Position numbers and translations under genes: made by a program. The notes under the pieces are model-generated. The model made no database searches. It saw only the letters and a program-made list of their open reading frames with translations, and was not told the DNA's origin. From positions 1 to 35,455 of the forward strand of contig JANXZQ010000159.1 in assembly GCA_025355445.1 (NCBI GenBank): DNA of 35,455 nucleotides. Reading direction: 5' to 3'. This document shows positions 6,564 to 28,227 of this stretch, piece after piece (the stretch's first letter is position 1; every line of letters starts with the position of its first letter). Source of the stretch: Gammaproteobacteria bacterium (GTDB lineage: Bacteria > Pseudomonadota > Gammaproteobacteria > Steroidobacterales > Steroidobacteraceae).

Positions 6564-6656
6564 GCAGTCATTCTGACCTATGTAGGCCATCCGCCGACAG
6601 ACTTCATCGAACCTATGGGCGGATACTGGCGACCTGACCCTCGCGAGGATTACACG

Positions 6657-6854
6657 ATGTCCGAGATCCCTGAATTGCCCGTGCCACCCACCACCGGCAC
6701 CGAAGATGACTATGACGATAGAGACGACGAGCATGCCGGCGAAAATGAAGCCAGTATCCGTGAGGTCGATGAGAACACAGAGACTCCCGAGGAATTCGAG
6801 GTCGATGACGAGGACGATTTACCTCATCCGGAGGACGACGCGAACGAGGTCTAG
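6657..6854 (+). CDS. Very acidic small protein of unknown function
   Basis: A 65-residue protein in which roughly two residues in five are Asp or Glu, including runs such as EDDYDDRDDEH and EVDDEDDLPH. No signal peptide or membrane segment is visible, and it is probably disordered. ATG at 6657 is preferred over an earlier in-frame ATG at 6615 because GAGGA (6645-6649) lies seven bases upstream. It is divergent from the MFS gene (93-base gap) and its TAG stop interlocks with the stop of the convergent SnoaL-like gene at CTAG 6851-6854. I do not recognise a family. The acidic composition could reflect binding of a basic protein or metal, but nothing in the sequence proves it. Confidence 0.6.
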   Translation: MSEIPELPVPPTTGTEDDYDDRDDEHAGENEASIREVDENTETPEEFEVDDEDDLPHPEDDANEV

Positions 6855-10451: not shown

Positions 10452-10620
10452 TGCGCCGCATGCTCTGTTATTGAGCGTGCGTTTTATCTGGGGAGACTTT
10501 AGCGTGGCGCGGCCGCTGCGACGAATAACTAGTGGAAATGGAGCGTATTGCCTGGTGAATATGACGTGCTGCGCGAGGCCACCGCTATGCGCATGCCGTT
10601 GAGGCTGCGGTCAGCGCTGT
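10452..10620. other. 169-base intergenic stretch with no recognised element
   Basis: It separates the flavin reductase gene from the deacetylase-TonB receptor operon. I looked for the TATGTC repeat element found before three nearby operons and did not find it, and I see no strong terminator. Confidence 0.5.
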
Positions 10621-11172
10621 CTATCTTGTCCGCGCGGTGCGTGCGGTTTCCGCAAGATCCAGTAGCGAGCCCATTTCTCCCATATGAAGGACCAAGGGCA
10701 GCGCTGCCGTCTTGCCATGGCGCTCGACCCTACCCAACAGAATGGTGTGATCTCCCTCCTGATATCGGGAATATGTCGTGCACTCGAAGGTCGCGACACA
10801 GTCCCGAAGGCGTGGACAGCCGCCGATGCCTTCCTCGAATTCATGCTCCCAGCCGGAGAACTTATCCGCGGCGGAGCGCGCAAAGTGCCTCGCCATCGGG
10901 CGCTGCACGGCGCCCAGGACGCTCAGGACGAAATGAGGGCCGCAGATGAATGCATCGGCGCTGCGCGCATCATCCCGGATGCTCCACAGAATCAACGGAG
11001 GTGCCAGCGACACCGACGCGAAGGAATTGATGGTCATCCCTTCGCGCTTGCCCTGCTCCGACAGAGTCGTGACGAGGCAAACCCCCGTGGGAAATGTCGC
11101 CAGCGATTGACGAAACGCCCGCGCGTCCGAGGTGTGGGGAATGTCGCCTGTGATGAGCGTCCAGGAATACAT
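10621..11172 (-). CDS. Flavin reductase component of a two-component monooxygenase (HpaC/HsaB type)
   Basis: Supplies reduced FMN or FAD to the partner oxygenase encoded just upstream. The 183-residue sequence is a flavin-reductase-like domain: FRQSLATFPTGVCLVTT is the classic N-terminal motif, followed by GMTINSFASVSLAPPLILWSI, which forms the flavin pocket, and a late GDHTILLGRVE strand. There is no signal peptide. The gene begins 15 bases after the oxygenase stop, so the two form a transcription unit behind the promoter element at 12505-12550. No strong ribosome-binding site precedes ATG 11172, consistent with translation following the upstream gene. The pairing reductase plus class D oxygenase is diagnostic of phenol ortho-hydroxylation systems such as 4-hydroxyphenylacetate 3-hydroxylase and HsaAB. 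The actual substrate is not known. Confidence 0.88.
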   Translation of the reverse strand: MYSWTLITGDIPHTSDARAFRQSLATFPTGVCLVTTLSEQGKREGMTINSFASVSLAPPLILWSIRDDARSADAFICGPHFVLSVLGAVQRPMARHFARSAADKFSGWEHEFEEGIGGCPRLRDCVATFECTTYSRYQEGDHTILLGRVERHGKTAALPLVLHMGEMGSLLDLAETARTARTR

Positions 11173-12450: not shown

Positions 12451-12504
12451 CACAGATCCTTATGCAAATCCCATTGCCGGGGAAAGTTACGTGGCGGCGC
12501 TTGT

Positions 12505-12550
12505 AGGGTCTAATGAAAACTCGACATACCTTCAATACACGGCTGACATA
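12505..12550 (-). promoter_or_regulatory. LysR-type two-part box before the hydroxylase operon
   Basis: On the minus strand TATGTC occurs at 12545-12550 and again at 12523-12528, exactly 22 bases apart. The downstream copy continues into an ATG-N9-CAT dyad (also a T-N11-A LysR core). The 24 bases at 12505-12528 are identical to 16563-16586. TTGAAG lies 17 bases before TAGACC and could be the -35/-10 pair. The box is about 75 bases before the hydroxylase ATG. Confidence 0.75.
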
Positions 12551-12677
12551 CAGCGCCGGTCGCGCAGCCGGGCGCCATCGGCGCTAACATCTCTCTGGGG
12601 GACGGGCGAAGCTCCAACCGGCATTGGCTGGACCTTGCCGCGGGATCGGGCCTAGTCTCGGGCCCTAGCGGAATCGA

Positions 12678-13772
12678 TTAGTGACTTTCGGCGGCCTTTG
12701 CTTCCTGGCGCAGGAACGCCAGCACCAGAGATTCCGCTCTGCGCGGGGCCGCGAGACTCAGACTGCCGTTGAATACCCTGTGGATGAGTCCTGACCGCCA
12801 CGAATCGAAAACCGCCGGATTGATATAGGACTTGCGGCAAACCGCCGGGGTGTTGCGCAATTTGGCGGCTACTTGCTTGACCACATTGGCGATCTCGCCT
12901 TTCAATGCCCGCTCGCTGCCGTTTTCCGGAAGCGCCGTGCGCGCGAGCAAGGTGATGGCATGCAGGGTTGCACCCCAGGTGCGAAAATCCTTCGCCGTGA
13001 AGTCCTCGCCCATCGCTTCGCGCAGATAATCGTTGACCTGGCCGGAATCGATTGGGCAGCGCTGGCCGTCGTCGCTCACATATTGGAATAAATGCTGGCC
13101 GGGGATTTCCTGGCAGTGCCGCACGATCTGCACAATCCGCTTGTCATCAATGTGAACTTCGTGTTGCACGCCGCCTTTGCCGCGAAAATTCAACACCGCG
13201 CGCCCGTCGCGAATGAAGCTGACGTGGCGATTGCGCAGGGTGGTAAGGCCGAAGCTCTTGTTGTCGCGGGCATATTCGGTGTTGCCGATGCGCACCCGGG
13301 TTGCATCGAGAATGCCGACGACCACTGCGAGAACTTTTTCGCGCGGCAGTCCGGGTAAGCTCATGTCCCGCTTCAGCTTGCGCCGCAGCTTCGGCAGGGC
13401 CTCGCCGAAAGCCACCATGCGGTCGAACTTTGCGCTGTCGCGCACCTGTCGCCATTCGGGGTGGTAGCGGTATTGCTTGCGGCCGCGCGCATCCCTGCCG
13501 GTCGCCTGCAGATGTCCGCGCGGCTGGACGGAAATCCACACGTCCCGGTAAGCAGGCGGGATGGCCAGGCCGGCGATGCGCTTGAGTTCCTTGGCCGCCG
13601 CTAGTCTACGGTTCTCCGGCGTGAGATAACAAAACCCCTTGCCCGCGCGCAGGCGGCGAATGCCGGGCTCGGCGTCCGACACGTAGATCAAGCCTGCCTC
13701 CACCGCCATCTGCGCCGCTTCGGCGGCGACGCCGGTGAGATTGACAGCCGCGTTTGAATACTTAAGGGTCAT
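12678..13772 (-). CDS. DNA topoisomerase IB (poxvirus-like)
   Basis: Relaxes supercoiled DNA by transient 3'-phosphotyrosine linkage. The 364-residue protein has the N-terminal topoisomerase IB domain (IRRLRAGKGFCYL, IPPAYRDVWI, ATGRDARGRKQYRYHP) and a catalytic domain. The active-site pentad can be followed: Arg in ATRVRIGNTEYARDN, Lys in RGKGGVQHEVH, Arg in TAKDFRTWGAT, and the nucleophile Tyr316 in CRKSYINPAVF. Length is normal for bacterial homologues. ATG 13772 fits the family N terminus. It is a housekeeping-type gene sitting between two operons of the same catabolic regulon, with 242 bases before it and 227 after, so it is probably transcribed independently. A GGGCC/GGCCC hairpin at about 12648-12668 without a T-run could be a weak terminator. 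Confidence 0.92.
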   Translation of the reverse strand: MTLKYSNAAVNLTGVAAEAAQMAVEAGLIYVSDAEPGIRRLRAGKGFCYLTPENRRLAAAKELKRIAGLAIPPAYRDVWISVQPRGHLQATGRDARGRKQYRYHPEWRQVRDSAKFDRMVAFGEALPKLRRKLKRDMSLPGLPREKVLAVVVGILDATRVRIGNTEYARDNKSFGLTTLRNRHVSFIRDGRAVLNFRGKGGVQHEVHIDDKRIVQIVRHCQEIPGQHLFQYVSDDGQRCPIDSGQVNDYLREAMGEDFTAKDFRTWGATLHAITLLARTALPENGSERALKGEIANVVKQVAAKLRNTPAVCRKSYINPAVFDSWRSGLIHRVFNGSLSLAAPRRAESLVLAFLRQEAKAAESH

Positions 13773-14014
13773 GGCGTCGGATTGTTAGCGATTCCAAAGT
13801 CCTTGCGCTAGAGACAATTGCTGACGAGCGTGTAGGACAACACCATATCCGATCGTTTAGGCGAGTAGCTTTTTGACCTGCGGATTATGTGACGCAATTC
13901 TGTGACGCAATAGCGAGAACCCGCCGCTCCGGCACTCAGCCGGCGTGGCCGCCCACCGGAAAACCCCAATTACGTAGGCAACGCCGGGTAACTGCGTCCG
14001 GGTTCCATTGGAAT

Positions 14015-15025
14015 TCAACTGCCGAAGTCGCTGATCAGCGTGCCCAAGCTGTCGACGCTGATTGTCACCCGGTCACCGGACTTCAGGAAGATACCGCGTG
14101 CGGCGCCGCAGCCGGCTGGAGTGCCCGTCGCGATGACATCGCCGGGCTGCAGCGTGAGACGAGTGCTCAAGTGGGCTATCTGTTCCGCGATCGAGAAAAT
14201 CATGTTCGAACTCGAGGAGTCCTGCATCAGCTCCTCATTGACCCAAAGCCGAATTCCGAGATTGCCTATGTCATCGATATCGTCGAGGGGGCAAATCCAA
14301 GGACCGAATGGAAGCGCGCCATCGAAACACTTCTGGCTCACCCAATCGAAGTGAAAGGGGGAGTCGATAGCCACTCCGGGGCGCCTCAGGTGATCGCGAG
14401 CCGATAGGTCATTCACGATACTCAGCCCGGCAACAAATCCCATGGCCTGTTCCATACTGACGTTGCGGCATTCTCGGCCGATGATGACTGCAATTTCGGC
14501 CTCCCAGTCCACCTTCTTCGAATAGGCCGGCAGTCGAATGAGTTCGCCGCTTCCACGCACGCATGCCGCTCCGGCCTTGATGAAATGCCAAGGCTTGAGA
14601 CCGGCTTCATGGGGATCCGGCTCCGCCGGAAGGTTCATCGCCTTCGACATTTCGGCGACGTGATCGCGGTAATTGGCGCCGGCACAGAAAATTGTACCCG
14701 GATACAAAATAGGCGCCAACAATCGGACGTCACGCAGAGGCGGGGCCGCGACACCGGCCTTGCCGCGGCGGCCGGTGCCGCGACGCTGGTCGCGCGCCGC
14801 CTGCTCGAGAATTGGGTTAACTGACGGCCATTTTTCGAGGATCTGCAGCACCTGGGTGGGCAATGTGCTCGAGGACAATGTGCTCGAGAATTTTACGCCG
14901 CTCGTCGCCATGACGGTGGTCACATCCAGCAGCGAATCGTCTACCAAGATTCCGGCGCGCGGCACTTCGTTGCCGCGAACATAGGTGGCCAATCGGTAGG
15001 ACTGTTCTCGCATCGGTGGCGCCAT
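14015..15025 (-). CDS. Fumarylacetoacetate hydrolase (FAH) family protein, HpaG-like
   Basis: FAH-fold enzyme acting on a 2-keto or 2-hydroxymuconate-type ring-cleavage product, by hydrolysis, decarboxylation or isomerisation. In the homoprotocatechuate route HpaG is the matching step, and this cluster also has HpaH- and HpaI-like genes. The 336-residue protein has a variable N-terminal domain (1-105), then the FAH core: CAGANYRDHVAEM at 114-126, the metal ligands Glu175 and Glu177 in DWEAEIAVIIG, and Asp206 in SIVNDLSARD. The late IATGTPAGCG motif is also present. It starts 39 bases after the semialdehyde dehydrogenase stop, so the two genes form an operon controlled from 16563-16608. Start choice between ATG 15025 and ATG 15013 is uncertain. 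Whether it is a hydrolase or a decarboxylase/isomerase cannot be told from sequence. Confidence 0.87.
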   Translation of the reverse strand: MAPPMREQSYRLATYVRGNEVPRAGILVDDSLLDVTTVMATSGVKFSSTLSSSTLPTQVLQILEKWPSVNPILEQAARDQRRGTGRRGKAGVAAPPLRDVRLLAPILYPGTIFCAGANYRDHVAEMSKAMNLPAEPDPHEAGLKPWHFIKAGAACVRGSGELIRLPAYSKKVDWEAEIAVIIGRECRNVSMEQAMGFVAGLSIVNDLSARDHLRRPGVAIDSPFHFDWVSQKCFDGALPFGPWICPLDDIDDIGNLGIRLWVNEELMQDSSSSNMIFSIAEQIAHLSTRLTLQPGDVIATGTPAGCGAARGIFLKSGDRVTISVDSLGTLISDFGS

Positions 15026-15064
15026 AGGTCTAGTTGGTATTGCTAACCGGGGGCTGATGGGTCT

Positions 15065-16531
15065 TTAAGTTGCGACGCAGACATTGCGCAGTTCGGTATA
15101 GAACTCCAGCGAATGTATGCCGCCTTCGCGCCCAATGCCCGATTGCTTCGAGCCACCGAAGGGCGTTCTCAAATCTCGCAAAAACCAAGAATTAATCCAG
15201 ATGATGCCGGCCGTGATCGAAGTCCCCAGTCGAAACGAGCGGCCCACATCGCGGGTCCATATGGTCGCCGCCAATCCATAGGGCGTGTCGTTCGCGAGGC
15301 TGACCACCTCCTCCTCACTATCGAACGGGCGAATGTGACAGCAGGGCCCGAATATTTCCTCGCGCACAACCGCTGAATCCTCGGCCAATCCGGTCCAGAT
15401 GGTCGGTTGGATCCATGCGCCACCGGCCAACGAGTCCGGCACCTGCGGTATGCCGCCGCCGCAGATCAACGTTGCGCCATCTTCAATGGCGTGTTTGTAG
15501 TAACGCAAGACCTTGTCACGGTGCGCCAAGCTGATCAGCGGTCCTATGCCAGTGGTCTTGTCGGATGGGTGACCGGGCCGCAACGCCTCCGCCTTCACTT
15601 TGAGCGCCGCGACAAACTTATCGAAAATCGGCCGCTCTACGTAGACACGCTCGGTGCCCAGACAGATTTGACCGGTGTTCAAAAAGGATGCGCGCGCGAT
15701 GCCGCCCACGGCGGCGTCGAAATCACAGTCTGCGAATACGATGCCCGGATTCTTGCCGCCGAGTTCCAGAGACACCGGCCGGACTCCGTCCGCCGCAACT
15801 TTCATGATGGCAGAGCCGGTGGCGCTTTCACCGGTAAAGGTGATTGCATCGACCCCGGCATGCCGGGTCAGGTGTTCGCCCGCCGAATCCGCGCCAAAGC
15901 CGTGCACCACGTTATAGACGCCCGCCGGCACGCCAACAGTTTGCATGACTTCGCCCAACAGAGTCGCCGTTCCGGGAGTCTCCTCCGAGGGCTTGACGAC
16001 TACGGTGTTGCCGCACGCGAGCGCCGGAGCAACCTTCCAGGTCATCAGCAATAATGGCAGATTCCATGGGCAGATGACCGCGATCACGCCTTTCGGCGCG
16101 CGTACCGAGTAATTGAAGGCTTTACGTCCTTCCGGGGTGGTCATCTCGAAGAATTCGGTGGGTACATTCTTAACGGCGTCCGCAAACACGCGGAAATTAG
16201 CCGCGCCCCGCGGGATGTCGACATGCGAGGCGGCGGACCGGGGCTTTCCGGTGTCGGCAACCTCGGCGTCGAGGAAATCATCGAAACGGCGGTCGATTTC
16301 CCGGGCAACGGCGTACAACATCTCGGTCCGCTGCGCCAGGCTCATGCGCCCCCACGAACCTTGCAATGCCGCGCGAGCAGCCCGCACTGCCGAATCGACC
16401 TCAGCCGCCCCGCCCTCCGCGATGCTGCCGAGTAAACTGCCATCGACGGGGGAGCGTTTATCGAAGTACCTGTCGGTTGCCGAGGGTACGAAGGAGTTAT
16501 CGATAAAATGCAGGAATGTGGCGCCGCTCAT
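15065..16531 (-). CDS. 2-hydroxymuconic semialdehyde dehydrogenase-type aldehyde dehydrogenase (XylG/DmpC/HpaE-like)
   Basis: NAD-dependent oxidation of a meta-cleavage semialdehyde to the 2-hydroxymuconate-type acid. The 488-residue protein is a complete aldehyde dehydrogenase: Asn157 in CPWNLP, Glu256 in LELGGKNPG and the nucleophile Cys290 in NTGQICLGTE. The C-terminal NSWFLRDLRTPFGG and GREGGIHSLEFYTELRNVCV stretch is characteristic of the XylG/DmpC group. In HpaE the aldehyde carries a carboxymethyl group; the downstream hydratase and aldolase homologies fit that variant, so both substrates remain possible. ATG 16531 lacks a strong ribosome-binding site. The gene opens a minus-strand operon with the FAH enzyme and is divergent from the LysR gene. 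The shared box sits about 32 bases upstream of its start. Confidence 0.9.
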   Translation of the reverse strand: MSGATFLHFIDNSFVPSATDRYFDKRSPVDGSLLGSIAEGGAAEVDSAVRAARAALQGSWGRMSLAQRTEMLYAVAREIDRRFDDFLDAEVADTGKPRSAASHVDIPRGAANFRVFADAVKNVPTEFFEMTTPEGRKAFNYSVRAPKGVIAVICPWNLPLLLMTWKVAPALACGNTVVVKPSEETPGTATLLGEVMQTVGVPAGVYNVVHGFGADSAGEHLTRHAGVDAITFTGESATGSAIMKVAADGVRPVSLELGGKNPGIVFADCDFDAAVGGIARASFLNTGQICLGTERVYVERPIFDKFVAALKVKAEALRPGHPSDKTTGIGPLISLAHRDKVLRYYKHAIEDGATLICGGGIPQVPDSLAGGAWIQPTIWTGLAEDSAVVREEIFGPCCHIRPFDSEEEVVSLANDTPYGLAATIWTRDVGRSFRLGTSITAGIIWINSWFLRDLRTPFGGSKQSGIGREGGIHSLEFYTELRNVCVAT

Positions 16532-16562
16532 CTGGTGAGTGACATTACGTTGGCCAACCGAG

Positions 16563-16608
16563 AGGGTCTAATGAAAACTCGACATATCGGCAATTCAGAA
16601 TCGACATA
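16563..16608 (-). promoter_or_regulatory. LysR-type two-part box between the dehydrogenase operon and the LysR gene
   Basis: On the minus strand TATGTC occurs at 16603-16608 and 16581-16586, 22 bases apart; the downstream copy forms ATG-N9-CAT. Bases 16563-16586 repeat 12505-12528 exactly. It lies in the divergent intergenic region next to the LysR gene, the classic place for a LysR recognition plus activation site. TTGCCG and TAGACC, 17 bases apart, could be the promoter hexamers for the dehydrogenase operon. Confidence 0.75.
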
Positions 16609-16691
16609 ATGTGCATAGGTCCAAAGCGAAATTGCCGCTTTGACAGTGCCCTGCACGCGCCTTGGCGGTACTATGCCGGAAGGGGTAAGTA

Positions 16692-17660
16692 ATGAGCTTT
16701 AATCGGCTGGATCTCAATCTATTGCATGTGTTCAATGCGATTTACCATACGCGCAGCGTGACCGTGGCCGCGTCCAACTTGCATCTCACTCAGCCGGCGG
16801 TGAGCAAGCAGCTCAATCGACTGCGTGAGTTATTGAATGATCCGTTGTTTGTGCGTACCAATGAGGGGATGGCACCGACGCCTCGCGCCGAGGCGCTGGC
16901 AGGCCCCATTCACCGGGCACTGAGTGAAGTGCACCACGCGATCGAGCGACAGCTGGGCTTCGATCCGCTGACGTCGGATCGAACTTTTCGCATCTACCTC
17001 AACGACCTTGGGCAGATGGTGTTCTTACCTAAACTGCTTGACTTGATCGCCCGCGAGGCACCCTCGGTGAATATCCATACCGTCCAAGTGCCGCCTTCGC
17101 GGATGCGGGGCGTCGCGCTTGAATCCGGTGACGTGGATCTGGCAGTGGGATATTTTGACGATTTCGAAGGGTCCATCCACCAACAAGTATTGTTCGAAGA
17201 ACACTACGTGGGCATGGTGCGGGCCAATCATCCCACCATCCGCGAAAGGCTGTCGTTCGAGCAGTTTCTAGCGACGCCGCATTTGGTGTATCAACCCTCG
17301 GGTGGCGGCCACAGCTCTCAAGAAAGCGTGGTGGACAAGGCCTTCTGGTCGGCGGGAGTCGAGCGACGCGTTGCCGTACGCGTCGCGCACACCATGGGCG
17401 TGACCTCCATAGTGTCGCATACCGATCTTTTGGTGGTGGTGCCGCACCGGCTGGCACTCGCCTGCGTGGCCCTCGTCGATGTCAACGTGCTTGAGCTACC
17501 CATTGAAATCCCTCGCTTTTCCATTGCCCAGTACTGGCACGATCGGTTTCACGCCGACCCTGCAAATCGCTGGCTGCGCAGTGTCTTCTCACGCCTCTAC
17601 GGCAGCGCGTCGAGCCCCGTCGCCCGCTTTGCTCCCCGTGCACTGGACGTCAGCAACTAG
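16692..17660 (+). CDS. LysR-family transcriptional regulator
   Basis: A 322-residue DNA-binding activator/repressor. The N-terminal winged helix-turn-helix is clear: LDLNLLHVFNAIYHTRSVTVAASNL followed by LTQPAVSKQLNRLRELLNDPLFVRT. The substrate-binding domain (about 90-300) resembles the NodD/LinR/PcpR subgroup, which responds to phenolic or aromatic signals. AAGGGG precedes ATG 16692. It is divergent from the semialdehyde dehydrogenase operon, and the two-part box at 16563-16608 lies between them. The same box precedes two further catabolic operons, so I infer that this protein controls all three and perhaps itself. The inducer is not known; the pathway substrate or its ring-cleavage product would be usual. 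Confidence 0.9.
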   Translation: MSFNRLDLNLLHVFNAIYHTRSVTVAASNLHLTQPAVSKQLNRLRELLNDPLFVRTNEGMAPTPRAEALAGPIHRALSEVHHAIERQLGFDPLTSDRTFRIYLNDLGQMVFLPKLLDLIAREAPSVNIHTVQVPPSRMRGVALESGDVDLAVGYFDDFEGSIHQQVLFEEHYVGMVRANHPTIRERLSFEQFLATPHLVYQPSGGGHSSQESVVDKAFWSAGVERRVAVRVAHTMGVTSIVSHTDLLVVVPHRLALACVALVDVNVLELPIEIPRFSIAQYWHDRFHADPANRWLRSVFSRLYGSASSPVARFAPRALDVSN

Positions 17661-17810
17661 GAGCCGGTTCGCCATGCCTGCCGGATATGCCGCTCATTTC
17701 GAGAGGTGATTTGACCCCGATTCCATACGCCACTATCGTCCGATCGCGCGGTAAGCAAGGTTGCCGCAATCACCGTGCGCTCGCGTGAGTGCGAAAGTCG
17801 AGAACAAGAC

Positions 17811-18578
17811 ATGGCTGGAATTCTTCAGGGTAAGTCGCTCATTGTAACAGGGGCAGGCGGCGGGATTGGTCGGGCGACCTGTCTCGTCCTGTCCGCTGCC
17901 GGCGCCAAGGTGATCGTCACTGACATCAACGAGGAAGCCGGAAAGGCCACCGTCGAGGCGGTAGCCTCCAGCGGCGGCACAGCGGCCTTCGTCAAGGCCG
18001 ATATGTCTCGCGAGGACGAAGTGAAGGCACTCGTTACGCAGACCGTATCCACGTACGGCCGGTTGGACGGCGCATTCAACAATGCCGGCCTCGAACAGTG
18101 CGCGGTCCCCCTGCATGAACTGACCACCGAGCAATGGGAGCGGGCGCTCAAGGTCGATTTGACCAGCGTGTTCTGGTGCATCAAGTATCAAGTGATCGCC
18201 ATGCTCTCAACCGGCGGAGGTTCCATCGTCAACACGGCTTCCTCTCTCGGACAAGTCGCCATCAAGAACGCTGGGGAATACATCTCCGCCAAGCACGGGG
18301 TCGTTGGGCTGACGCGTGCCGCGGCCGCGGACTACGGCGCCCAGGGCATCAGAGTCAATGCCGTGTTGCCGGGCATTACGCTAACGCCGATGATTTCTCG
18401 CTTGGTGAGCGATGAAAACTTCAAACCCATTTTTGATAGGATTTTGGAACGTCATCCGATCGGCCGTTTCGGCCAGCCTTCTGAAATCGGAGAGGCGGTT
18501 AAGTGGTTGCTCTCCACGGATGCCTCATTCATGAATGGGGCCGCCTTGGCCGTGGATGGCGGATACCTTGCAACCTGA
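17811..18578 (+). CDS. Short-chain dehydrogenase/reductase (SDR)
   Basis: NAD(P)-dependent classical SDR of 255 residues. TGAGGGIG (13-20) is the nucleotide-binding motif and NNAG (90-93) the structural motif. The catalytic Ser144/Ser145, Tyr157 and Lys161 (YISAK) are all present, and VLPGITLTPM follows in the usual substrate-loop position. The acidic residue at the end of the second strand (VIVTDIN) favours NAD over NADP. ATG 17811 matches the family N terminus; a longer frame begins at 17775. It opens a plus-strand unit with the AtaL-SnoaL fusion, gamma-resorcylate decarboxylase and intradiol dioxygenase homologue, 150 bases after the LysR gene. No shared TATGTC box is present before it. 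Substrate unknown; oxidation of an alcohol side chain or a dihydrodiol on the aromatic ring is plausible. Confidence 0.87.
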   Translation: MAGILQGKSLIVTGAGGGIGRATCLVLSAAGAKVIVTDINEEAGKATVEAVASSGGTAAFVKADMSREDEVKALVTQTVSTYGRLDGAFNNAGLEQCAVPLHELTTEQWERALKVDLTSVFWCIKYQVIAMLSTGGGSIVNTASSLGQVAIKNAGEYISAKHGVVGLTRAAAADYGAQGIRVNAVLPGITLTPMISRLVSDENFKPIFDRILERHPIGRFGQPSEIGEAVKWLLSTDASFMNGAALAVDGGYLAT

Positions 18579-18626
18579 TACGAATCGCGCCGCCGTGTCC
18601 GCGGCAACTACTACCGAGGTAAACCC

Positions 18627-19478
18627 GTGTATCGATTAAGCCGAACCATCCCCGTGAACGAAGCTGGAAAGGTCTACCTGAGCCGGCACGATGTTTGGAC
18701 GGGCTTGATGATGAAAGCCCAAAACGCCCTGCCCTACGTTCCCCAGATGCAGAAATGCGAGGTGCTCGAAGAGGGAGAGGGTTGGCTGCTGCGCGATATT
18801 ATCTTCAACAACACGGCGCTGCGTGAGCGGGTGACTTTTGAGCCGGAAGCCCGCGTCGTATTCGACCGCGTCGGCGGCCCGGAACTGGGACGCATCGAAA
18901 ATATCATCGGCGAGGACGAACACGGCAATCTTACGCTGACATTTGCATTCGGACTCACGAAGGACGGCATAGCAGAGAACACCGACGCTGAGCGCGCACA
19001 CTTCGCACCGATGGAAGGCGCCTATATGGGAGCAGTCGCTGCCACCCTCGGCGCAGTCCGGCGCACTGTGGCCGAACAGGGCCGCGATAAAATGCCCTCG
19101 GCGAGCCCCGACGATGTGTCGGGGGACAACAAGTGGGTGTACGATTTCTTTAAAGTTGCCGATAGCCTGCAAATGGAACCATTTTTGCAGATGTTTGCCG
19201 ATGACGTGCAGCTGACCTTCGCCAACTATCCTACCAGCACCGGCAAAGCGGCGCTGCAAGGGGCCATTGGCGGACTGTGGAGCCGGATTTCCGGCATGTC
19301 ACACAGCCTCTCCGGCGCCTGGTCGCTACACGACGGCCGTGTTGGGATCGCCGAGAGCACGGTCATGTACACCCGGCTGGACGGGTCGCTGTACATAGCG
19401 CGACCCGCCACCATGCTTCGCCGGCGCGGCGGCAAGATTTCACACCTGCGCATTCATGTGGACGTCAACGGGCTGTGA
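18627..19478 (+). CDS. AtaL-like (DUF1857) plus SnoaL-like two-domain fusion protein
   Basis: A 283-residue soluble protein made of two small-molecule-binding folds. Residues about 1-155 look like the AtaL/DUF1857 group of the START/Bet v1 superfamily: SRTIPVNEAG, DVWTGLMMKAQNALPYVPQM, LLRDIIF and RERVTFEPEARVVFDRVGG. Residues about 165-283 look like a SnoaL/NTF2 domain, with YDFFKVADSLQMEPFLQMFADDVQLTFAN and a C-terminal beta-rich part. GTG 18627 is supported by GAGGT (18616-18620). AtaL-like and SnoaL-like proteins separately occur in aromatic polyketide and ring-modifying pathways. I have no recollection of a characterised fusion. It sits directly before the gamma-resorcylate decarboxylase (10-base gap). 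It may bind or isomerise the aromatic acid or a ring product; that is inference. Confidence 0.78.
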   Translation: MYRLSRTIPVNEAGKVYLSRHDVWTGLMMKAQNALPYVPQMQKCEVLEEGEGWLLRDIIFNNTALRERVTFEPEARVVFDRVGGPELGRIENIIGEDEHGNLTLTFAFGLTKDGIAENTDAERAHFAPMEGAYMGAVAATLGAVRRTVAEQGRDKMPSASPDDVSGDNKWVYDFFKVADSLQMEPFLQMFADDVQLTFANYPTSTGKAALQGAIGGLWSRISGMSHSLSGAWSLHDGRVGIAESTVMYTRLDGSLYIARPATMLRRRGGKISHLRIHVDVNGL

Positions 19479-19488
19479 ACGTGGACTC

Positions 19489-20469
19489 ATGATCGGCAAA
19501 GTAGGGCTGGAAGAACACTTCGCGATCCCCGAGACGCTGCAAGATTCAGCCGGCTTTGTCCCAGGCGAGTACTGGATTGAACTGTGCCGCAGGCTGCTGG
19601 ATATCCAAGACGACCGATTGCGCCAGATGGACGACAACGGAATGGAAATGATGGTGTTGTCGCTGAATGCGCCCGCCGTGCAGGCCATTGCGTCACCCAC
19701 TCAGGCCAATTCGATTGCCGTGCGTGCCAACGATTTTCTGGCCGAGCAGGTTGCCAGGCGGCCGGATCGATTTCAGGCGTTTGCAGCGCTGCCGCTGCAG
19801 GACCCCGATATGGCTGCAGCGGAGTTCGAGCGTTGCGTGAAGCAACTCGGCTTCAAAGGGGCTCTGGTCAACGGTTTCTCGCAGATAGGTTCAGCCGAGA
19901 ACTGCGTCTATTACGATGCCCCTCAATACGCGGATTTTTGGGGTGTGGTCGAAAAGCTGGACGTGCCGTTCTACTTGCATCCTCGTAACCCCATCCCCTC
20001 GTGGGCGCAAATCTATGGCGGGCATCCATGGTTGATGGGTCCTACCTGGGCCTTTGGCCAAGAGACGGCAGTGCACGCGCTTCGCCTCATCGCGAGCGGT
20101 CTATTTGATCGGCATCCAGATCTTAAGATCGTATTGGGCCACATGGGAGAAGGACTCCCGTATAGCATGTGGAGGATCGATAATCGAAACGCCTGGGTAA
20201 AGGCGCCAAAGACCTACCCCGCCAAGAAAACCTTCGGCGAGTACTTTCAGAATAATTTCTATCTCACCACGTCAGGCAATTTTCGCACGCAAACCCTGAT
20301 AGATGCCTTGCTGGAAGTGGGCTCCGATCGGATCTTATTTTCCACCGACTGGCCCTTTGAAAATGTCGACCACGCAGCGCAATGGTTCGATACCGCCTCC
20401 ATCAGCGAAGCCGATCGCTTGAAGATTGGAAGAACCAACGCCGTCAATCTTTTCAATTTGGACCTTTAA
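19489..20469 (+). CDS. graF: Gamma-resorcylate (2,6-dihydroxybenzoate) decarboxylase
   Basis: Non-oxidative, metal-dependent decarboxylase of the amidohydrolase-2 superfamily that converts 2,6-dihydroxybenzoate to resorcinol, reversibly. The 326-residue protein follows the known enzymes nearly residue for residue from memory: KVGLEEHFAIPETLQDSAGF at the start, LSLNAPAVQAI, PFYLHPRNP, GPTWAFGQETAVHALRLIASG, GHMGEGLPY and LFSTDWPFENVDHA. Metal and catalytic positions Glu8, His10, His164, His218 and Asp287 fall at the family numbers. ATG 19489 gives the exact family N terminus. It lies between the fusion protein and the intradiol dioxygenase homologue in the same orientation. The pathway normally continues through a resorcinol hydroxylase and hydroxyquinol 1,2-dioxygenase. 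The symbol varies between species (graF, tsdA, rdc). A related dihydroxybenzoate substrate cannot be excluded. Confidence 0.9.
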   Translation: MIGKVGLEEHFAIPETLQDSAGFVPGEYWIELCRRLLDIQDDRLRQMDDNGMEMMVLSLNAPAVQAIASPTQANSIAVRANDFLAEQVARRPDRFQAFAALPLQDPDMAAAEFERCVKQLGFKGALVNGFSQIGSAENCVYYDAPQYADFWGVVEKLDVPFYLHPRNPIPSWAQIYGGHPWLMGPTWAFGQETAVHALRLIASGLFDRHPDLKIVLGHMGEGLPYSMWRIDNRNAWVKAPKTYPAKKTFGEYFQNNFYLTTSGNFRTQTLIDALLEVGSDRILFSTDWPFENVDHAAQWFDTASISEADRLKIGRTNAVNLFNLDL

Positions 20470-20492
20470 GCCCGCTGCATTCGGCGCCTGGC

Positions 20493-20499
20493 AAGGAGG
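20493..20499 (+). promoter_or_regulatory. Strong ribosome-binding site for the intradiol dioxygenase homologue
   Basis: AAGGAGG lies five bases before GTG 20505. It fixes this start over the longer open frame that begins inside the decarboxylase gene. Confidence 0.75.
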
Positions 20500-20504
20500 C
20501 GATC

Positions 20505-21395
20505 GTGGTCAACATCGACGAGTGGACAATTACCAAGGCGGTGCTCGACGCACAACGAGGGTGCACTGATCCGCGGCTGAAGACCCTCTTGGATAGCCTG
20601 GTAACTCACCTCCATGACTTTGCGCGCGAAGTGCGGTTGTCCGAGAGTGAATGGCGTGCGGGCATTCAATTTCTCACCGAGGTCGGGCGCTTTACCGACA
20701 GTAAGCGCCAGGAATTCATTCTTCTTTCCGACACTCTGGGCCTCTCCACGCTCGTCACGGCGCAAAACAACTGCAAGCCTGAAGGCTTTACGGAGTCCAC
20801 GGTGTTCGGCCCGTTTTTTGTCAAGGATGCGCCCTGGTACGACAATGGCGAGGACATCGCAAATGGCGCGCATGGTGAACCCTGTTTCGTCAATGGGACC
20901 GTCAAAGACAACGAGGGCGAACCCATCTCGGATGCTCACATCGCGGTGTGGCAATCGGATAAGGATGGGTTCTACGATGTGCAGCGGCCGGAATTGAGCC
21001 GTCTGCAAGCTCGCGGCAATCTGCGCAGCCTCGTCGACGGACGTTTTTATTTCAAATCCATTGTTGCAGCGCCTAACCCGATTCCGAACGATGGCCCGGT
21101 GGGCAGGATGCTGTCGGCCGCGGGTAGACATCCGTGGCGCCCTGCTCACCTGCATTTCATGATCACTGCGCCGGGTTACGAACCCCTCATAACCCATATT
21201 TTTCGAGACAAGGGCCCTTACCTTGACTCGGATGCGGTGTTCGGCGTTCGATCATCCTTGATTGCGGATTGGGAGCGACATGATGCCGGCTCGGCGCTGG
21301 CGAACGGTACGCCGTCAAGCATCCCCTATTACACGTTGCGCTACGACTTCAAATTGTTCCGTGCGCGTCCACTCGCGAGGGCGCAAACCCCCTAA
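20505..21395 (+). CDS. Intradiol ring-cleavage dioxygenase homologue (hydroxyquinol/catechol 1,2-dioxygenase family) with an altered iron site
   Basis: By family it would cleave a catechol or hydroxyquinol between the two hydroxyls using non-haem Fe(III). The 296-residue protein has the N-terminal helical dimerisation domain (about 1-95) and the beta-sandwich core: TVFGPFFVKDAP, then SDKDGFYDVQ containing the first ligand Tyr157. GPVGRML, GRHPWRPAHLHF (His215 and His217) and PGYEPLITHIF complete it. In known enzymes the second Tyr ligand lies 24 residues before the first His, in a P-Y-P-I-P context. Here that position is Asn191 (APNPIPNDG, codon AAC at 21076-21078). Activity is therefore uncertain. 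The GTG start is fixed by AAGGAGG. It closes the gamma-resorcylate unit, where a working hydroxyquinol dioxygenase would be expected. Confidence 0.88.
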   Translation: MVNIDEWTITKAVLDAQRGCTDPRLKTLLDSLVTHLHDFAREVRLSESEWRAGIQFLTEVGRFTDSKRQEFILLSDTLGLSTLVTAQNNCKPEGFTESTVFGPFFVKDAPWYDNGEDIANGAHGEPCFVNGTVKDNEGEPISDAHIAVWQSDKDGFYDVQRPELSRLQARGNLRSLVDGRFYFKSIVAAPNPIPNDGPVGRMLSAAGRHPWRPAHLHFMITAPGYEPLITHIFRDKGPYLDSDAVFGVRSSLIADWERHDAGSALANGTPSSIPYYTLRYDFKLFRARPLARAQTP

Positions 21396-21435
21396 TGCTG
21401 CACCGCAACAGCGTTCGGGCTGCGCGCTCACGCCG

Positions 21436-21480
21436 TATGTCGGTAGTGGATTAAAGGTATGTCCAGTTTTCATTCGACGC
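21436..21480 (+). promoter_or_regulatory. LysR-type two-part box before the meta-cleavage operon
   Basis: TATGTC occurs at 21436-21441 and 21458-21463, 22 bases apart, reading towards the downstream genes. The second copy runs into AGTTTTCATT and forms ATG-N9-CAT, as in the boxes at 12505 and 16563. TTAAAG and TCGACG, 17 bases apart, align with the promoter hexamers proposed there. The extradiol dioxygenase starts about 115 bases downstream of the second repeat. Confidence 0.72.
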
Positions 21481-21577
21481 TGGTATTTACAAGCCCGTAA
21501 TGTCGCGGAAGTGCCTGCGGTATCTGATACTGGAGAGCGCGGACATCAGGGACCAAGGGCGGCAAGGAGCGAGAACG

Positions 21578-22465
21578 ATGATTTCTCTTAAAGATATTCG
21601 CTATGTGCGCTTGGGCACTACGAATCTCGACGATGCGGCGCGCTACGCCACCAAGGTATTGGGCTTGGAATTGGTACGCCGCGACCGCGGCGGCGCCTAT
21701 ATGCGCTCCGACAGCCGCGACCATACATTGGTGTACACCGCAGGCGACCCTCGCGAACATGTGGTGGCGTTTGAAGTAGGATCGCTGGCGGAGCTCGATG
21801 CCGCCGGCTCGGAGCTGGACAATTCCGGCTACATCGTCAAAGCAGTGACGCGTGGCGAGTGCGAGCAGCGCTGGGTGGATGCAGCTGTCGTGTTCAACGA
21901 CCCGAGTGGCAATACCATCGAACTGATCGCGCGGCCGGCCCACAGTGGCCGCCGTTATTTTCCGACCCGGGATGCGGGCATCACGGGCTTTTCGCATATC
22001 GGATTGCACTCCCTATCGCCGAGCAAGGATGAAGCATTCTGGACCACGTTATGCAACGCGCGCGTCAGCGACTGGATCGGCGAGGCGCCGCTTCTACGGA
22101 TCGATCCCGTGCATCACAGAATGGCATTGTTCCCGTCGAAACTGACGGGTGTCCAACACATCAATCATCAAGTCGAAAGCATCGACGACATCATGCGTTC
22201 TTACTACTTCCTGCGTGAGCAAAACGTCAAAGTCCGATTTGGGCCCGGTCGACATCCCACTTCCGGCGCCATGTTTCTTTATTTCGACGGCCCCGATGGA
22301 ATGATTTACGAATATTCCTCCGGGGTCAGTCACATCACAGATGAAGCAGGCCATCGACCCCGGCAGTTCCCTGCCGCCAATTCGTCATTTTGCGCGTGGG
22401 GCTCCAAGCCGGATATACCCGAATTCGAGGGCGCCATAAGCTTTGCCGAAACAGTCGATGCCTGA
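21578..22465 (+). CDS. Type I extradiol ring-cleavage dioxygenase (two-domain VOC, BphC-like)
   Basis: Fe(II)-dependent meta-cleavage of a catecholic ring next to the hydroxyl pair. The 295-residue protein has two VOC domains. The N-terminal one runs from about 5 to 120 (RYVRLGTTNLDDAARYATKVLGLEL, ending SGNTIELIARP). The catalytic C-terminal one runs from about 135 to 265. The ligand triad is His140 in GFSHIGLH, His194 in GVQHINHQV and Glu245 in IYEYSSG. A further His197 may assist. ATG 21578 is chosen because AAGGAG (21564-21569) lies eight bases upstream; a longer frame starts at 21500. It opens the operon behind the box at 21436-21480 and overlaps the next gene by eight bases. The substrate is presumably the catechol made by the flavin hydroxylase at 11188, as inference. 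Confidence 0.88.
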   Translation: MISLKDIRYVRLGTTNLDDAARYATKVLGLELVRRDRGGAYMRSDSRDHTLVYTAGDPREHVVAFEVGSLAELDAAGSELDNSGYIVKAVTRGECEQRWVDAAVVFNDPSGNTIELIARPAHSGRRYFPTRDAGITGFSHIGLHSLSPSKDEAFWTTLCNARVSDWIGEAPLLRIDPVHHRMALFPSKLTGVQHINHQVESIDDIMRSYYFLREQNVKVRFGPGRHPTSGAMFLYFDGPDGMIYEYSSGVSHITDEAGHRPRQFPAANSSFCAWGSKPDIPEFEGAISFAETVDA

Positions 22466-23144
22466 TGTGGTGACCAACAATTCGAACGCCATGGAATCGC
22501 GAATTAGGGTGGCGGCCCGTACGCTTGCCAAAGCCGGGCTCGTACACGCGTACGGCCATTGCAGCGCGCGCTTAGGGGAGCACCAGTTTCTGGTGAGCCC
22601 GCCCAAGCCTCTGGGGCTGGTTGCGAAGGACGACGCTCCGGTTATCGTTTCGACCACAGGTTCGCTGCCGGTGGGCGCCTTGCCTGAGGTCATCGCGCAT
22701 CAACACATCTATTGGCGACGGGCGGAAGTGGGGGGAGTCGTTAGATTTCAATCGCCGCACGTCATGGCGCTTTCCGTATTGGGACGAACGCCGCGCGCAT
22801 TACATGGCCTCGGCGCCTATTTTGCACCCTGCCCTCCGCTGCACCCGGACCCGCGCCTGGTACGCGACGACAAAAGTGCCGCTGCCTTGGCTGAGCGCAT
22901 GGGCGAGGCACGCGCAATAGTACTGCGGGGCAACGGCGCCATCACAGCGGGCGCCTCGATTGAGGAGGCCGTGGCGCTCGCCTGGTATCTCGAGGATGCG
23001 GCGCGGGTCGAGTTGGCGGTGCTGAGCACCGGTCTGGAGCCGCAAGTATTCACCACGGAAGAAGTGCGGGATCGAGCCATCGACGCCGGATCAATGCTGA
23101 TGCGAATGTGGAATTGGATGTCCGCGAACGATCCGGAATTATGA
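22458..23144 (+). CDS. Class II aldolase/adducin-fold protein with non-canonical metal site
   Basis: A 228-residue protein of the class II aldolase fold. The nearest functional idea is decarboxylation of a carboxylated ring-cleavage product, as done by CmtD-type HCOMODA decarboxylases, which share this fold. GHCSARL (33-39), FLVSPP, LPEVIAHQHIYWRR (Glu77) and EEAVALAWYLEDAARVE follow the fold's landmarks. The three usual metal histidines are all different: the H-x-H pair corresponds to Arg96 and Gln98 (VVRFQS), and the HG motif to Asn159 (LRGNGAITAG). The mechanism must therefore differ, or metal is not used. ATG 22458 overlaps the dioxygenase gene by eight bases; ATG 22491 is an alternative. 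Genes on both sides are meta-cleavage enzymes, so it probably acts directly after ring opening. Function not established. Confidence 0.78.
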   Translation: MPDVVTNNSNAMESRIRVAARTLAKAGLVHAYGHCSARLGEHQFLVSPPKPLGLVAKDDAPVIVSTTGSLPVGALPEVIAHQHIYWRRAEVGGVVRFQSPHVMALSVLGRTPRALHGLGAYFAPCPPLHPDPRLVRDDKSAAALAERMGEARAIVLRGNGAITAGASIEEAVALAWYLEDAARVELAVLSTGLEPQVFTTEEVRDRAIDAGSMLMRMWNWMSANDPEL

Positions 23145-23163
23145 ACAAGTTACGGGGTCTCTT

Positions 23164-23685
23164 ATGAACGAAGCTACGACCGACACGGGCAAGAAATCGA
23201 CACTGAATCTCAAGTTCCTATCGCATGGGACGCTCGAGAGCAAGGATCTGGAATTTACACGCAGATTTTATGAAGACTTTATGGGCTTCGAGGTCATACA
23301 ACCTGCCAAGATCGCGCTCTGGATCAGGCTGGGCGGAAACAATATTTACGCTGTCGTGCAGACGATGCCGGGCCGGAAGGGAGAAATGACCTTTCTCAAC
23401 CACAATGGCGTCGACGTCGAAACAGAGGACGATGTCGATGAGGCTCATCGGCTCGTAATGCGCGACGCCGAGAAGTGGAAACTTCACAAAATCAGCAAGC
23501 CGGCCGTGCAGCATGGCACGTACAGTTTCTACTTCTGGGACTGCGACGATAATGCTTGGGAGATCCTGGCCAATCCACCGGGGGGTTATAGTTGGCTGTT
23601 CGAGAAGGGAGATCAGGAAGGCCTGGGACACATGAGCCGCAAATTCGAGCGGCCGGAATCGACCCGGCGCAAAAAATCCCCATAG
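23164..23685 (+). CDS. Single-domain VOC (glyoxalase/extradiol-type) protein
   Basis: A 173-residue vicinal-oxygen-chelate protein of unknown reaction. The fold is recognisable from FLSHGTLESKDLEFTRRFYEDFMGFEV at the start and YSFYFWDCDDNAWEILANPPGG at the end. A possible metal triad is His21, His80 and Glu133, the H-H-E arrangement of extradiol dioxygenases and some isomerases. Only one VOC domain pair is present, so activity would need a dimer. It lies between the class II aldolase-fold gene (19-base gap) and the hydratase in the meta-cleavage operon. Either a second ring-cleavage enzyme or an isomerase of the ring-fission product is possible; no 4-oxalocrotonate tautomerase or HpaF-type isomerase is otherwise visible in the window, so the isomerase role is attractive but unproven. 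Confidence 0.78.
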   Translation: MNEATTDTGKKSTLNLKFLSHGTLESKDLEFTRRFYEDFMGFEVIQPAKIALWIRLGGNNIYAVVQTMPGRKGEMTFLNHNGVDVETEDDVDEAHRLVMRDAEKWKLHKISKPAVQHGTYSFYFWDCDDNAWEILANPPGGYSWLFEKGDQEGLGHMSRKFERPESTRRKKSP

Positions 23686-23748
23686 GCGTCGCGAGCACGG
23701 CGCTCGGTACGATTTATTTCCCAACAATCCAATGTCGAGGATCGCTCT

Positions 23749-24531
23749 ATGTTGACTGAAGAACAGCGCAGCCAGGCTATTGCCGGCCTGGTTGAGGCAC
23801 ACCGCACAAAGAAGCCATGCGTGCAGCTTTCGACCACGTTCCCGTCGATCGAGATCGCCGATGCTTACGCGATCTCCTCCGCCATGGCTCAGCTCAAGAT
23901 CGCGAAAGGCTCCAGGCTAATAGGTCACAAGATTGGATTGACCTCCAAGGCGATGCAGGCATCCTCGCAAATCGACGAACCGGATTATGGGCACTTGTTC
24001 GATGACATGTTGATTCAGGACGGGGCCAAGGTGCGGCACGCGGATTTCTGCGTGCCCCGGGTGGAACCGGAGTTGACCTTCATTTTAAAAGAGCCTTTGA
24101 AGGGGCCCAATGTCGGCCTGATCGATGTGCTGCGTGCCACCGACTATATTGTGCCGTCCATCGAAATCATCGATGCACGCGTGCAGAACCCGCGAAAGAT
24201 TTTCGATACCGTCGCCGACAATGGCGCAGCTGCGAGTTTGGTGCTTGGCGGACGGCCGGTGCGGCCCCAGGACATTGATCTGCGGTGGATCGGTGTATTG
24301 TTTTACCGAAATGGGGAAATCGAGGAGACTGGGCTCGCGGCGGGCGTCCTGGGCAACCCAGCCCTGGCCATCGCTTGGCTGGCTAATAAGCTGGCGCCTT
24401 TCGATGTCACACTGGAGCCGGGACATATGATGTTGTCAGGATCGTTTACCCGGCCATTGTGGGCGCAGAAAGGCGACACGCTACATGCCGATTTTGGCCC
24501 GCTTGGCGGCGTTGCCGTGCAGTTCGTCTGA
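23749..24531 (+). CDS. hpaH: 2-oxo-hept-4-ene-1,7-dioate hydratase (HpaH/HpcG-like)
   Basis: Adds water to the 2-oxo-4-enoate formed after ring cleavage and decarboxylation, giving a 4-hydroxy-2-oxo acid. The 260-residue protein closely follows E. coli HpaH/HpcG as I remember it: LIGHKIGLTSKAMQASSQI, EPDYGHLFDDM, VPRVEPELTFIL (metal-site Glu pair), VPSIEIIDARV, and IEETGLAAGVLGNPALAIAW with ANKLAPFDV. A GSFTRPLWAQKGDT motif closes the protein. Relatives include MhpD and DmpE hydratases and 4-oxalocrotonate decarboxylase, but the KAMQASSQI-DEPDYG sequence is strongly HpaH-like. It is followed after five bases by the HpaI-like aldolase, the same order as the homoprotocatechuate pathway. This suggests a dicarboxylic intermediate with a side-chain carboxylate. 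Confidence 0.9.
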   Translation: MLTEEQRSQAIAGLVEAHRTKKPCVQLSTTFPSIEIADAYAISSAMAQLKIAKGSRLIGHKIGLTSKAMQASSQIDEPDYGHLFDDMLIQDGAKVRHADFCVPRVEPELTFILKEPLKGPNVGLIDVLRATDYIVPSIEIIDARVQNPRKIFDTVADNGAAASLVLGGRPVRPQDIDLRWIGVLFYRNGEIEETGLAAGVLGNPALAIAWLANKLAPFDVTLEPGHMMLSGSFTRPLWAQKGDTLHADFGPLGGVAVQFV

Positions 24532-24536
24532 ACGCC

Positions 24537-25307
24537 ATGTCGTTGCCTGAAAATTCATTCAAGAGCGCATTGCGCGAGGGCCGCCAACAACTCGGCATCT
24601 GGAGCACGTTTTGCAGTCCCATAGTCGCAGAGATTCTAGGGAAATCCGGATTCGATTGGATCCTGTTCGACGCGGAGCACTCTCCTGTGGAAATTGCGGG
24701 GCTGTTGCCTCTGCTGCAGGCGGCGAGTTGTGGACCAGCCACCTCCGTGGTGCGGCCGGCATGGAACGACCCCGTACTCATCAAACGTATATTGGATATA
24801 GGGGCCCAAACAGTATTGCTGCCCTTCGTGCAAACCTCCGAGGAAGCCCATCGAGCCGTGCAAAGTTGTCACTACCCTCCCGATGGCCGGCGGGGTGTTT
24901 CGGGAACGACGCGTGCCAGCGATTTCGGGCGGACAAGCAATTATCTAAAGACCGCCGCGGAGCAGATATGCGTGTTGGTGCAGGTGGAGACTGGAGAGGC
25001 GCTAGGACAACTTGAGCAGATCGCGGGCGTGCCCGGCGTCGATGGTGTATTTATTGGGCCTTCGGACTTGTCGGCCTCCATGGGATATCTCGGCAATCCC
25101 GGCCATGCCGATGTGCAGGCAGCCATCAAGGCGGCGCTTGGACCCATACGAGCTGCCGGCAAGGCCGCCGGCATTCTTGCGACTTCAGCTCCCGATGCCA
25201 AACGCTATCTTGACTGGGGCTATCAATTCGTCGCCTGCAATGTCGATGTGCGCATCTTCGTGCAAGGCCTCGATGCGTTGCGAACCGAGATGAGCAGCCG
25301 CGCGTGA
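24537..25307 (+). CDS. hpaI: 4-hydroxy-2-oxoheptanedioate aldolase (HpaI-like)
   Basis: Class II pyruvate aldolase of the HpcH/HpaI family that splits the hydrated 2-oxo acid into pyruvate and a semialdehyde (succinic semialdehyde in the classical pathway). The 256-residue protein has the family landmarks: DWILFDAEHSPVE (catalytic His in AEH), VVRPAWNDPVLIKRILDIGAQTVLLPFVQ, YPPDGRRGV, the metal-site VQVETGEAL and VFIGPSDLSASMGYLGNPGH. ATG 24537 gives the exact HpaI N terminus (ENSFKSALREGR) and lies five bases after the hydratase stop. It ends the meta-cleavage operon and converges on the MmsA-type dehydrogenase 17 bases away. That dehydrogenase could oxidise the aldehyde product to a CoA ester; this is inference. 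The aldehyde released depends on the unknown substrate. Confidence 0.9.
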   Translation: MSLPENSFKSALREGRQQLGIWSTFCSPIVAEILGKSGFDWILFDAEHSPVEIAGLLPLLQAASCGPATSVVRPAWNDPVLIKRILDIGAQTVLLPFVQTSEEAHRAVQSCHYPPDGRRGVSGTTRASDFGRTSNYLKTAAEQICVLVQVETGEALGQLEQIAGVPGVDGVFIGPSDLSASMGYLGNPGHADVQAAIKAALGPIRAAGKAAGILATSAPDAKRYLDWGYQFVACNVDVRIFVQGLDALRTEMSSRA

Positions 25308-28187: not shown

Positions 28188-28215
28188 TTGGGCGTTGAGA
28201 ATGCAACGCTATAGT
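28188..28215 (+). promoter_or_regulatory. Candidate promoter with a perfect palindrome in its spacer
   Basis: TTGGGC (28188-28193) and TATAGT (28210-28215) are 16 bases apart. Between them GCGTTG-N6-CAACGC (28192-28209) is a perfect inverted repeat, positioned as an operator. It would drive the SDR at 28287. No LysR-type box is present on this strand. Confidence 0.4.
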
Positions 28216-28227
28216 ATTAAAAGTACA

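Follow-up and report, generated by a model that had tools for sequence, protein, structure and literature searches.

In a 35,455-nucleotide stretch of DNA from a gammaproteobacterium of the family Steroidobacteraceae (assembly GCA_025355445.1, contig JANXZQ010000159.1; "the window" hereafter), a two-part promoter element, TATGTC-N16-TATGTC, stands before several gene units for the breakdown of aromatic compounds. We consider it highly likely that this element represents the operator and core promoter of a regulon activated by a LysR-type regulator that is encoded in the window. The predicted regulon is one of four strong sites (P1 to P4) and one weak candidate (P5), and the scattered aromatic-breakdown genes would thus be switched on together by one regulator. 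Five computed lines support this explanation: the placement of two boxes relative to an inferred core promoter, the retention of orthologous sites between diverged flanks, the position of the sites at the head of gene runs despite a differing gene order in three genomes, the presence of sites and regulator in the same genomes, and the same box spacing before homologous LysR genes. An earlier note, made from the sequence of this stretch, had proposed a LysR regulon with three sites; the regulon is supported, but three sites were too few.

The earlier note had described TATGTC pairs 22 bases apart before three operons, and a pattern search of the window places them at 12523-12550 (-), 16581-16608 (-) and 21436-21463 (+), with no match in 100 shuffles. 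In the whole genome (4,870,549 bases in 548 contigs, 84% complete) the motif is present only at these three sites, and a reversed control pattern is absent throughout. A single TATGTC occurs 21 times in the window versus 8.0 expected, and six of the 21 are part of the double-box element. A 43-base pattern built from the three window copies and allowed up to three mismatches finds the same three copies in the own genome and none in the remaining 368 of 369 class genomes drawn; one match is present in a relative outside this draw. As the note had also said, the downstream copy forms ATG-N9-CAT in all three cases. The upstream copy is of the T-N11-A type as well (ATG-N9-nAT), and so the element consists of two like boxes, box1 and box2. 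Conservation extends beyond box2 via TTTTCATTnGAC as far as the -10, and the whole promoter covers about 67 bp, with box1, box2 22 bp on, an abutting -35 and a -10.

P1 and P2 share 24 identical bases (12505-12528 and 16563-16586), an identity that had been read correctly in the note. This observation would suggest that the copies could be recent duplications of DNA with no function, for example mobile-element remnants. However, the flanks of P1 and P2 are unrelated (7/19 identical bases upstream, 5/15 in the spacer), the same columns are kept in other genomes, and the diverged P4 copies are kept at orthologous places. Therefore, we regard such an origin as extremely unlikely.

The predicted regulator has a LysR helix-turn-helix domain and a LysR substrate-binding (effector) domain, both above the Pfam cut-offs. 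Its best matches among solved structures are LysR-type PDB chains (E=1e-63), and those at the head of the matches are presumably DntR. NahR, which is about 41% identical, is among its best plasmid matches; its best NCBIfam models, BsrA and then LeuO, are both below cut-off. A scan of GTDB contigs, sensitive to close relatives only, yielded a 33% relative and an 85% ortholog, the latter in PLAH01000077.1 (Gammaproteobacteria bacterium isolate bog_1204; L033 in the following). Among 217 genomes of the family, G561 and G549 (78% identical) are the only ones apart from the own genome to have matches at E<=1e-80. G561 and G704, the genome that contains L033, have identical contig coordinates and are therefore taken as one genome. 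Between the three genomes the DNA-binding part of the regulator is 88-90% identical and the effector part 78-84%, and the dehydrogenase gene is divergent from the regulator gene in all three. P2 is the copy that the note had seen beside the LysR gene; it sits between this gene and the divergent dehydrogenase gene.

Nine strong sites are present in these genomes, four in the window, two in L033 and three in G549. All nine have the same order, namely box1 (AT-N11-AT), box2 (AT-N11-AT) 22 bp later, an abutting -35 (TNGACS) and a -10 (TAnnnT). The -35 and -10 are separated by 17 bp in six sites and by 18 bp in three, and the -10 hexamers are TAACTT, TAATGT (twice), TATCGT (twice), TAACGT (twice), TAGCGT and TATTGT. 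Eight of the sites were aligned, and none of them departs from the AT pairs of the two boxes, from GAC in the -35 or from TA in the -10. Counted back from the inferred -10, the centre of box1 is near -65 and that of box2 near -43 in all nine. The available portions of PMC5603801 and PMC4730206 place the recognition site of LysR-type regulators near -65 and the activation site near -35, and PMC4730206 places an activation site near -10 as well. Relative to the inferred -10, all nine strong sites have a T-N11-A recognition site near -65, and in all nine the second AT-N11-AT box abuts the -35, where the activation site is predicted. The predicted -65/-43 placement is LysR geometry.

Since TNGAC and TAnnnT are kept at a nearly fixed spacing, the element might also be read as just a core promoter for an alternative sigma factor, with no activator. 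This would leave unexplained the two like upstream boxes, with ATs that are invariant in the eight aligned sites, as well as the occurrence of the same spacing before LysR-type genes, and we give such a sigma-factor promoter very little credence. The dehydrogenase gene of each of the three genomes, like the P450 gene of G549, has its ATG just 8-10 nt after the inferred -10 (window 16542-16531; L033 9867-9857; L038 18311-18301; L057 8446-8455); therefore, near-leaderless mRNAs are predicted for these genes.

Both relatives keep the promoter ahead of the dehydrogenase gene. In this intergenic region the three genomes have retained ATG, ATTG, TAT-TC, TTTTCATT, GAC and CGTAA, and most of the other bases have diverged. 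The 43-base pattern with up to three mismatches has no match in G549, where the dehydrogenase site is six mismatches away; this site was found by a scan relaxed to 11 mismatches and was then entered into the profile described below. The relaxed scan also revealed a diverged site, as a conserved block, ahead of the short-chain dehydrogenase (SDR) gene downstream of the regulator in all three genomes. In the window this is P4, the copy missed by the earlier note. When P1-P3 and the two dehydrogenase orthologs were the sole training set of a weight matrix, which thus had not seen the SDR site, this site ranked directly below the training sites in each of the window, L033 and the G549 contig. When one class at a time was left out, all nine strong sites outscored all of 2 million random-sequence positions with both models.

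A sequence-only profile of eight sites was searched over the three genomes, with 150 of the 361-449 first-look candidates scored per genome. It recovered the eight training sites (E<=4.6e-10) and one new site (E=2.9e-6), and eight others had E>=0.458. The new site, on which the profile was not trained, is on a different contig of G549, just upstream of a gene 70% identical to the P450 gene of the window. The G549 P450 ortholog is divergent from a TonB receptor gene 64% identical to the TonB gene of the window. This G549 paralog is full length; in the window, a short frame at 28195-28290 (+) that adjoins the P450 gene resembles, by eye, the C-terminus of a TonB receptor.

Among the 217 family genomes, sites with E<1e-5 (stricter filters) are present only in the three that carry the regulator, and these three are also the only ones with the ring-cleavage gene (E<=1e-60). 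A weak site in G667 (E=0.006) is inside an open reading frame and was taken as a chance match among the 217 genomes.

The box spacing was also looked for in the 300 bp upstream of 84 homologous LysR genes that are 28-40% identical to the window's and may belong to various subfamilies. The 84 regions consist of 22 loci, 26 loci and 36 further regions (L005-L023, L027-L029, L065-L126); several loci are from the same genus and the counts are not all independent. AT-N11-AT-N7-AT-N11-AT (N11/N7) is present upstream of 32 of the 84 genes, whereas 300 rounds of shuffling gave 1.5 on average and never more than 6. In the three sets it occurs in 9/22, 12/26 and 11/36 regions, which ranks it second, second and tied first among 108 spacings. 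For the 48 LysR loci with flanks, the N11/N7 element is upstream in 21/48, inside the gene in 0/48 and downstream in 1/47. The strict ATG-type double box is absent from the upstream regions of these distant genes (0/48). The 32 distant elements frequently have an extra T/A at offsets 4-5 and 31-32, with T at offset 5 in 28 of the 32, and this pattern suggests a 37-bp palindromic form of the double box.

Several observations weigh against this explanation. The -10 and the N17/N18 spacing were picked after the sites had been inspected. The box centres do not stand out in a symmetry scan, where offsets 27.5 and 19.0 outscore 30.0 and 8.0 and the centres rank fourth and sixth; since the scan is not decisive, the dyad claim rests on the AT-N11-AT core. 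The spacing AT-N7-AT-N2-AT-N7-AT (N7/N2) equals or beats N11/N7 in every set (11, 13 and 11 regions); it is present in 35 of the 84 regions versus a shuffled mean of 1.4 and shares 25 regions with N11/N7, and it occurs in none of the nine strong sites, all of which have N11/N7. Six further LysR homologs outside the 84 (three from L024, one each from L025 and L034, and NahR of pDTG1) do not have the double pattern upstream (0/6). The weight matrix gives P4 a score of 2.2, which falls within eight shuffled maxima (up to 7.2), and therefore the shared genomic place is the stronger evidence for P4. The P5 candidate at 10520-10562 (-) scores 7.2 (about 5e-6 per position) and its box1 is without the T-N11-A core; at E<=10 the profile reports neither P5 nor the TonB site of L033 nor the first one of G549, and a second G549 TonB site, on the strand opposite to the new P450 site and directed towards the divergent TonB gene, appears only at E=1.19. 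A promoter scan gave no convincing site for the P450 genes of the window and L033. Finally, the 3/217 match is not independent, because the profile was trained on those genomes and the regulator and genes are co-inherited; the pattern shows absence elsewhere rather than an independent association.

The most serious rival is suggested by the form of the element. TATGTC-N16-TATGTC is a direct repeat, and activators of the AraC/XylS family typically use a pair of direct half-sites, spaced by about 21-22 bp and adjacent to the -35, so that the element might be bound by such an activator whose gene is elsewhere in the genome. The indecisive symmetry scan would agree with this, an AraC-family gene is annotated near the cluster of the Caballeronia pathway relative described below, and the sites of BenR (AraC/XylS) are likewise repeats, TGCA-N6-GGNTA, in the available part of PMC6449761. 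However, none of the 22 window proteins scanned with Pfam or NCBIfam is of the AraC type (no such search covered the rest of the genome), the LysR gene adjoins the site in each of the three genomes, neither box departs from AT-N11-AT in any of the eight aligned sites, and the same spacing is found ahead of other LysR genes. The N11/N7 spacing ties the predicted geometry to LysR-type rather than AraC-type regulators, and we consider an AraC/XylS activator quite improbable.

On the LysR explanation, the NahR-like regulator encoded at 16692 would bind as a tetramer, with one dimer on box1 (about -65) and one on box2 (about -43), the latter abutting a weak -35. With an aromatic inducer, the regulator would shift or tighten on box2 and recruit RNA polymerase to the TNGACS-N17/18-TAnnnT promoter. 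Activation rather than repression, the inducer and the transcription starts are all predicted here. P2, between the regulator and dehydrogenase genes, may also serve to autoregulate the regulator. The available parts of PMC5603801 and PMC4730206 state that no conserved motif has been deduced for the LysR activation site. A box2 that has the core of box1, abuts the -35 and recurs with the same spacing at 32 of 84 LysR genes would make the activation-site question testable by mutation, and this fixed second box is the point of general interest. A wider rule is conceivable, namely that in the NahR-related branch the activation site is an AT-N11-AT dyad of its own, kept exactly 22 bp from the recognition site, that this is common to much of the branch, and that in the present clade the cassette was copied before each fragment as an ancestral catabolic operon broke up. 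We hold this rule only tentatively, somewhat short of an even chance, because N7/N2 does as well, six homologs are without the pattern and the 84 genes may not all belong to this branch.

The predicted sites and the genes behind them are listed in Table 1. The enzyme families would fit phenolic hydroxylation, extradiol cleavage, semialdehyde oxidation and hydratase and aldolase steps, possibly with a decarboxylation by the class II aldolase-family protein. The best named model of this protein is a dihydroxyphthalate decarboxylase, below cut-off, and the HpaH-type hydratase scores 353 bits versus a cut-off of 351.5. The one coherent route seen by the earlier note is therefore plausible. The SDR unit, next to the extradiol unit, has an intradiol dioxygenase, and with both types of ring cleavage represented there may be two substrates or two branches. 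Between the hydroxylase and dehydrogenase units is a gene (12678-13772, -) that by eye resembles DNA topoisomerase IB, and the catabolic run looks interrupted by it.

Table 1. Predicted promoter sites and gene units of the window
Feature	Position	Strand	Details
P1, hydroxylase unit promoter	12484-12550	-	box1 12549-12535, box2 12527-12513; profile E=1.7e-14 (training site)
P1 core promoter		-	-35 TAGACC 12512-12507, -10 TAACTT 12489-12484
P2, aldehyde dehydrogenase unit promoter, divergent from LysR gene	16542-16608	-	box1 16607-16593, box2 16585-16571; profile E=1.9e-13 (training site); kept at both orthologous loci
P2 core promoter		-	-35 TAGACC 16570-16565, -10 TAATGT 16547-16542
P3, ring-cleavage unit promoter	21436-21503	+	box1 21437-21451, box2 21459-21473; profile E=1.7e-12 (training site)
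P3 core promoter		+	-35 TCGACG 21474-21479, -10 TAATGT 21498-21503
P4, diverged fourth copy ahead of SDR unit	17673-17739	+	box1 17674-17688, box2 17696-17710
P4 core promoter		+	-35 TTGACC 17711-17716, -10 TATCGT 17734-17739
P5, weak candidate ahead of PuuE-like/TonB/SnoaL/MFS genes	10496-10562	-	-35-like TCGTCG, -10-like TAAAGT, N17
Flavin reductase partner	10621-11172	-	
Flavin-dependent hydroxylase, first gene behind P1	11188-12450	-	like HsaA and p-hydroxyphenylacetate hydroxylase C2
Fumarylacetoacetate-hydrolase-family (FAH) enzyme, second gene behind P2	14015-15025	-	
2-Hydroxymuconic semialdehyde dehydrogenase, first gene behind P2	15065-16531	-	TIGR03216, 860 bits, cut-off 693
LysR-type regulator, predicted to bind P1-P4	16692-17660	+	PF00126 and PF03466 above cut-off
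Short-chain dehydrogenase SDR1, first gene behind P4	17811-18578	+	start set by ortholog match
SRPBCC/SnoaL protein, amidohydrolase, intradiol dioxygenase, downstream of SDR1	18627-21395	+	
Extradiol (VOC-fold) dioxygenase, first gene behind P3	21578-22465	+	start 21578, not 21500
Class II aldolase-family protein, second VOC protein, HpaH-type hydratase, HpaI-type aldolase	22443-25307	+	

In both relatives the dehydrogenase and ring-cleavage genes are in one co-directional run with one strong site. In L033 a single run behind this site begins with the dehydrogenase, two hydratase-family genes, a tautomerase-like frame and the ring-cleavage gene, continues with a class II aldolase-like gene, a second VOC gene and an FAH gene, and ends with acetaldehyde dehydrogenase-like and hydroxy-oxovalerate aldolase-like genes (by eye) and the hydroxylase. 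The tautomerase-like frame, flanked by a hydratase gene and the ring-cleavage gene, is small (6598-6785, -; by eye). At L033 1399-1446 (-), inside the last part of the aldolase-like gene and shortly ahead of the hydroxylase gene, a weak match to the double box scores 10.1. L033 also has a MarR-like frame (20186-20749, -; by eye) 9 kb from the LysR gene, and another regulator may be active in this genome. G549 has a dehydrogenase-to-FAH run with one site and a second run of TonB, SnoaL, hydroxylase and reductase genes, in which TonB is preceded by a site of moderate score (19.8).

The window has the shared genes divided among hydroxylase, dehydrogenase-FAH and ring-cleavage units, with a strong site before each. 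No counterparts of the L033-type tautomerase, aldolase and acetaldehyde dehydrogenase were noticed in the scanned set of window proteins, which includes HpaH/HpaI-type enzymes instead. P1-P3 are identical to each other at 33-36 of 43 bases versus 29-34 of 43 with the dehydrogenase sites of the relatives, a small difference. P1 and P3 may have arisen by copying of P2 when an ancestral single operon split. The split arrangement, set against the long run of the relatives, would be a clear example of operators following genes. With at least four gene units tied to one regulator and a complete promoter grammar, a single reporter would do for an inducer screen.

Our searches found no related literature on LysR regulation together with operon splitting and promoter duplication, and no paper that combines LysR, class II aldolase and extradiol dioxygenase (searched with three further terms). 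The closest pathway relatives are on plasmids of Cupriavidus necator C39, Caballeronia zhejiangensis and Paraburkholderia caribensis, where the ring-cleavage gene is 59-65% identical; in C. necator C39 the dehydrogenase is 71% identical, but the LysR genes are only 38-43% identical. At E<=1e-15 there was no LysR match with the annotated LysR gene of Caballeronia or anywhere in the Paraburkholderia stretch, and the strict ATG-type double box, the only pattern used here, is absent from all three stretches (L024-L026). NahR/DntR-type activators of naphthalene, salicylate and dinitrotoluene pathways are alike in regulator sequence and in having aromatic catabolic targets. However, the target enzymes differ, the region upstream of nahR on pDTG1 is without this double-box pattern, and at only about 41% identity to NahR the inducer of the window regulator may differ.

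The CatR/BenM/ClcR-type regulators, as far as PMC6449761 was available, are similar in the divergent regulator gene, the T-N11-A sites, aromatic catabolism and the comparative reconstruction of the regulon, but they belong to another subfamily, have an AkACC-N5-GGTAT motif and serve other catechol pathways. LysR regulons of several operons are already known: in the available part of PMC5603801, PnpR of Pseudomonas sp. WBC-3 acts on several separate catabolic operons through T-N11-A-type sites, and a relative with a single operon is noted. The PnpR system differs in its motif (GTT-N11-AAC) and in the participation of a second regulator, and that part of the paper describes no second box of the same sequence. 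The predicted regulon of the window likewise places one LysR regulator over several separate catabolic operons.

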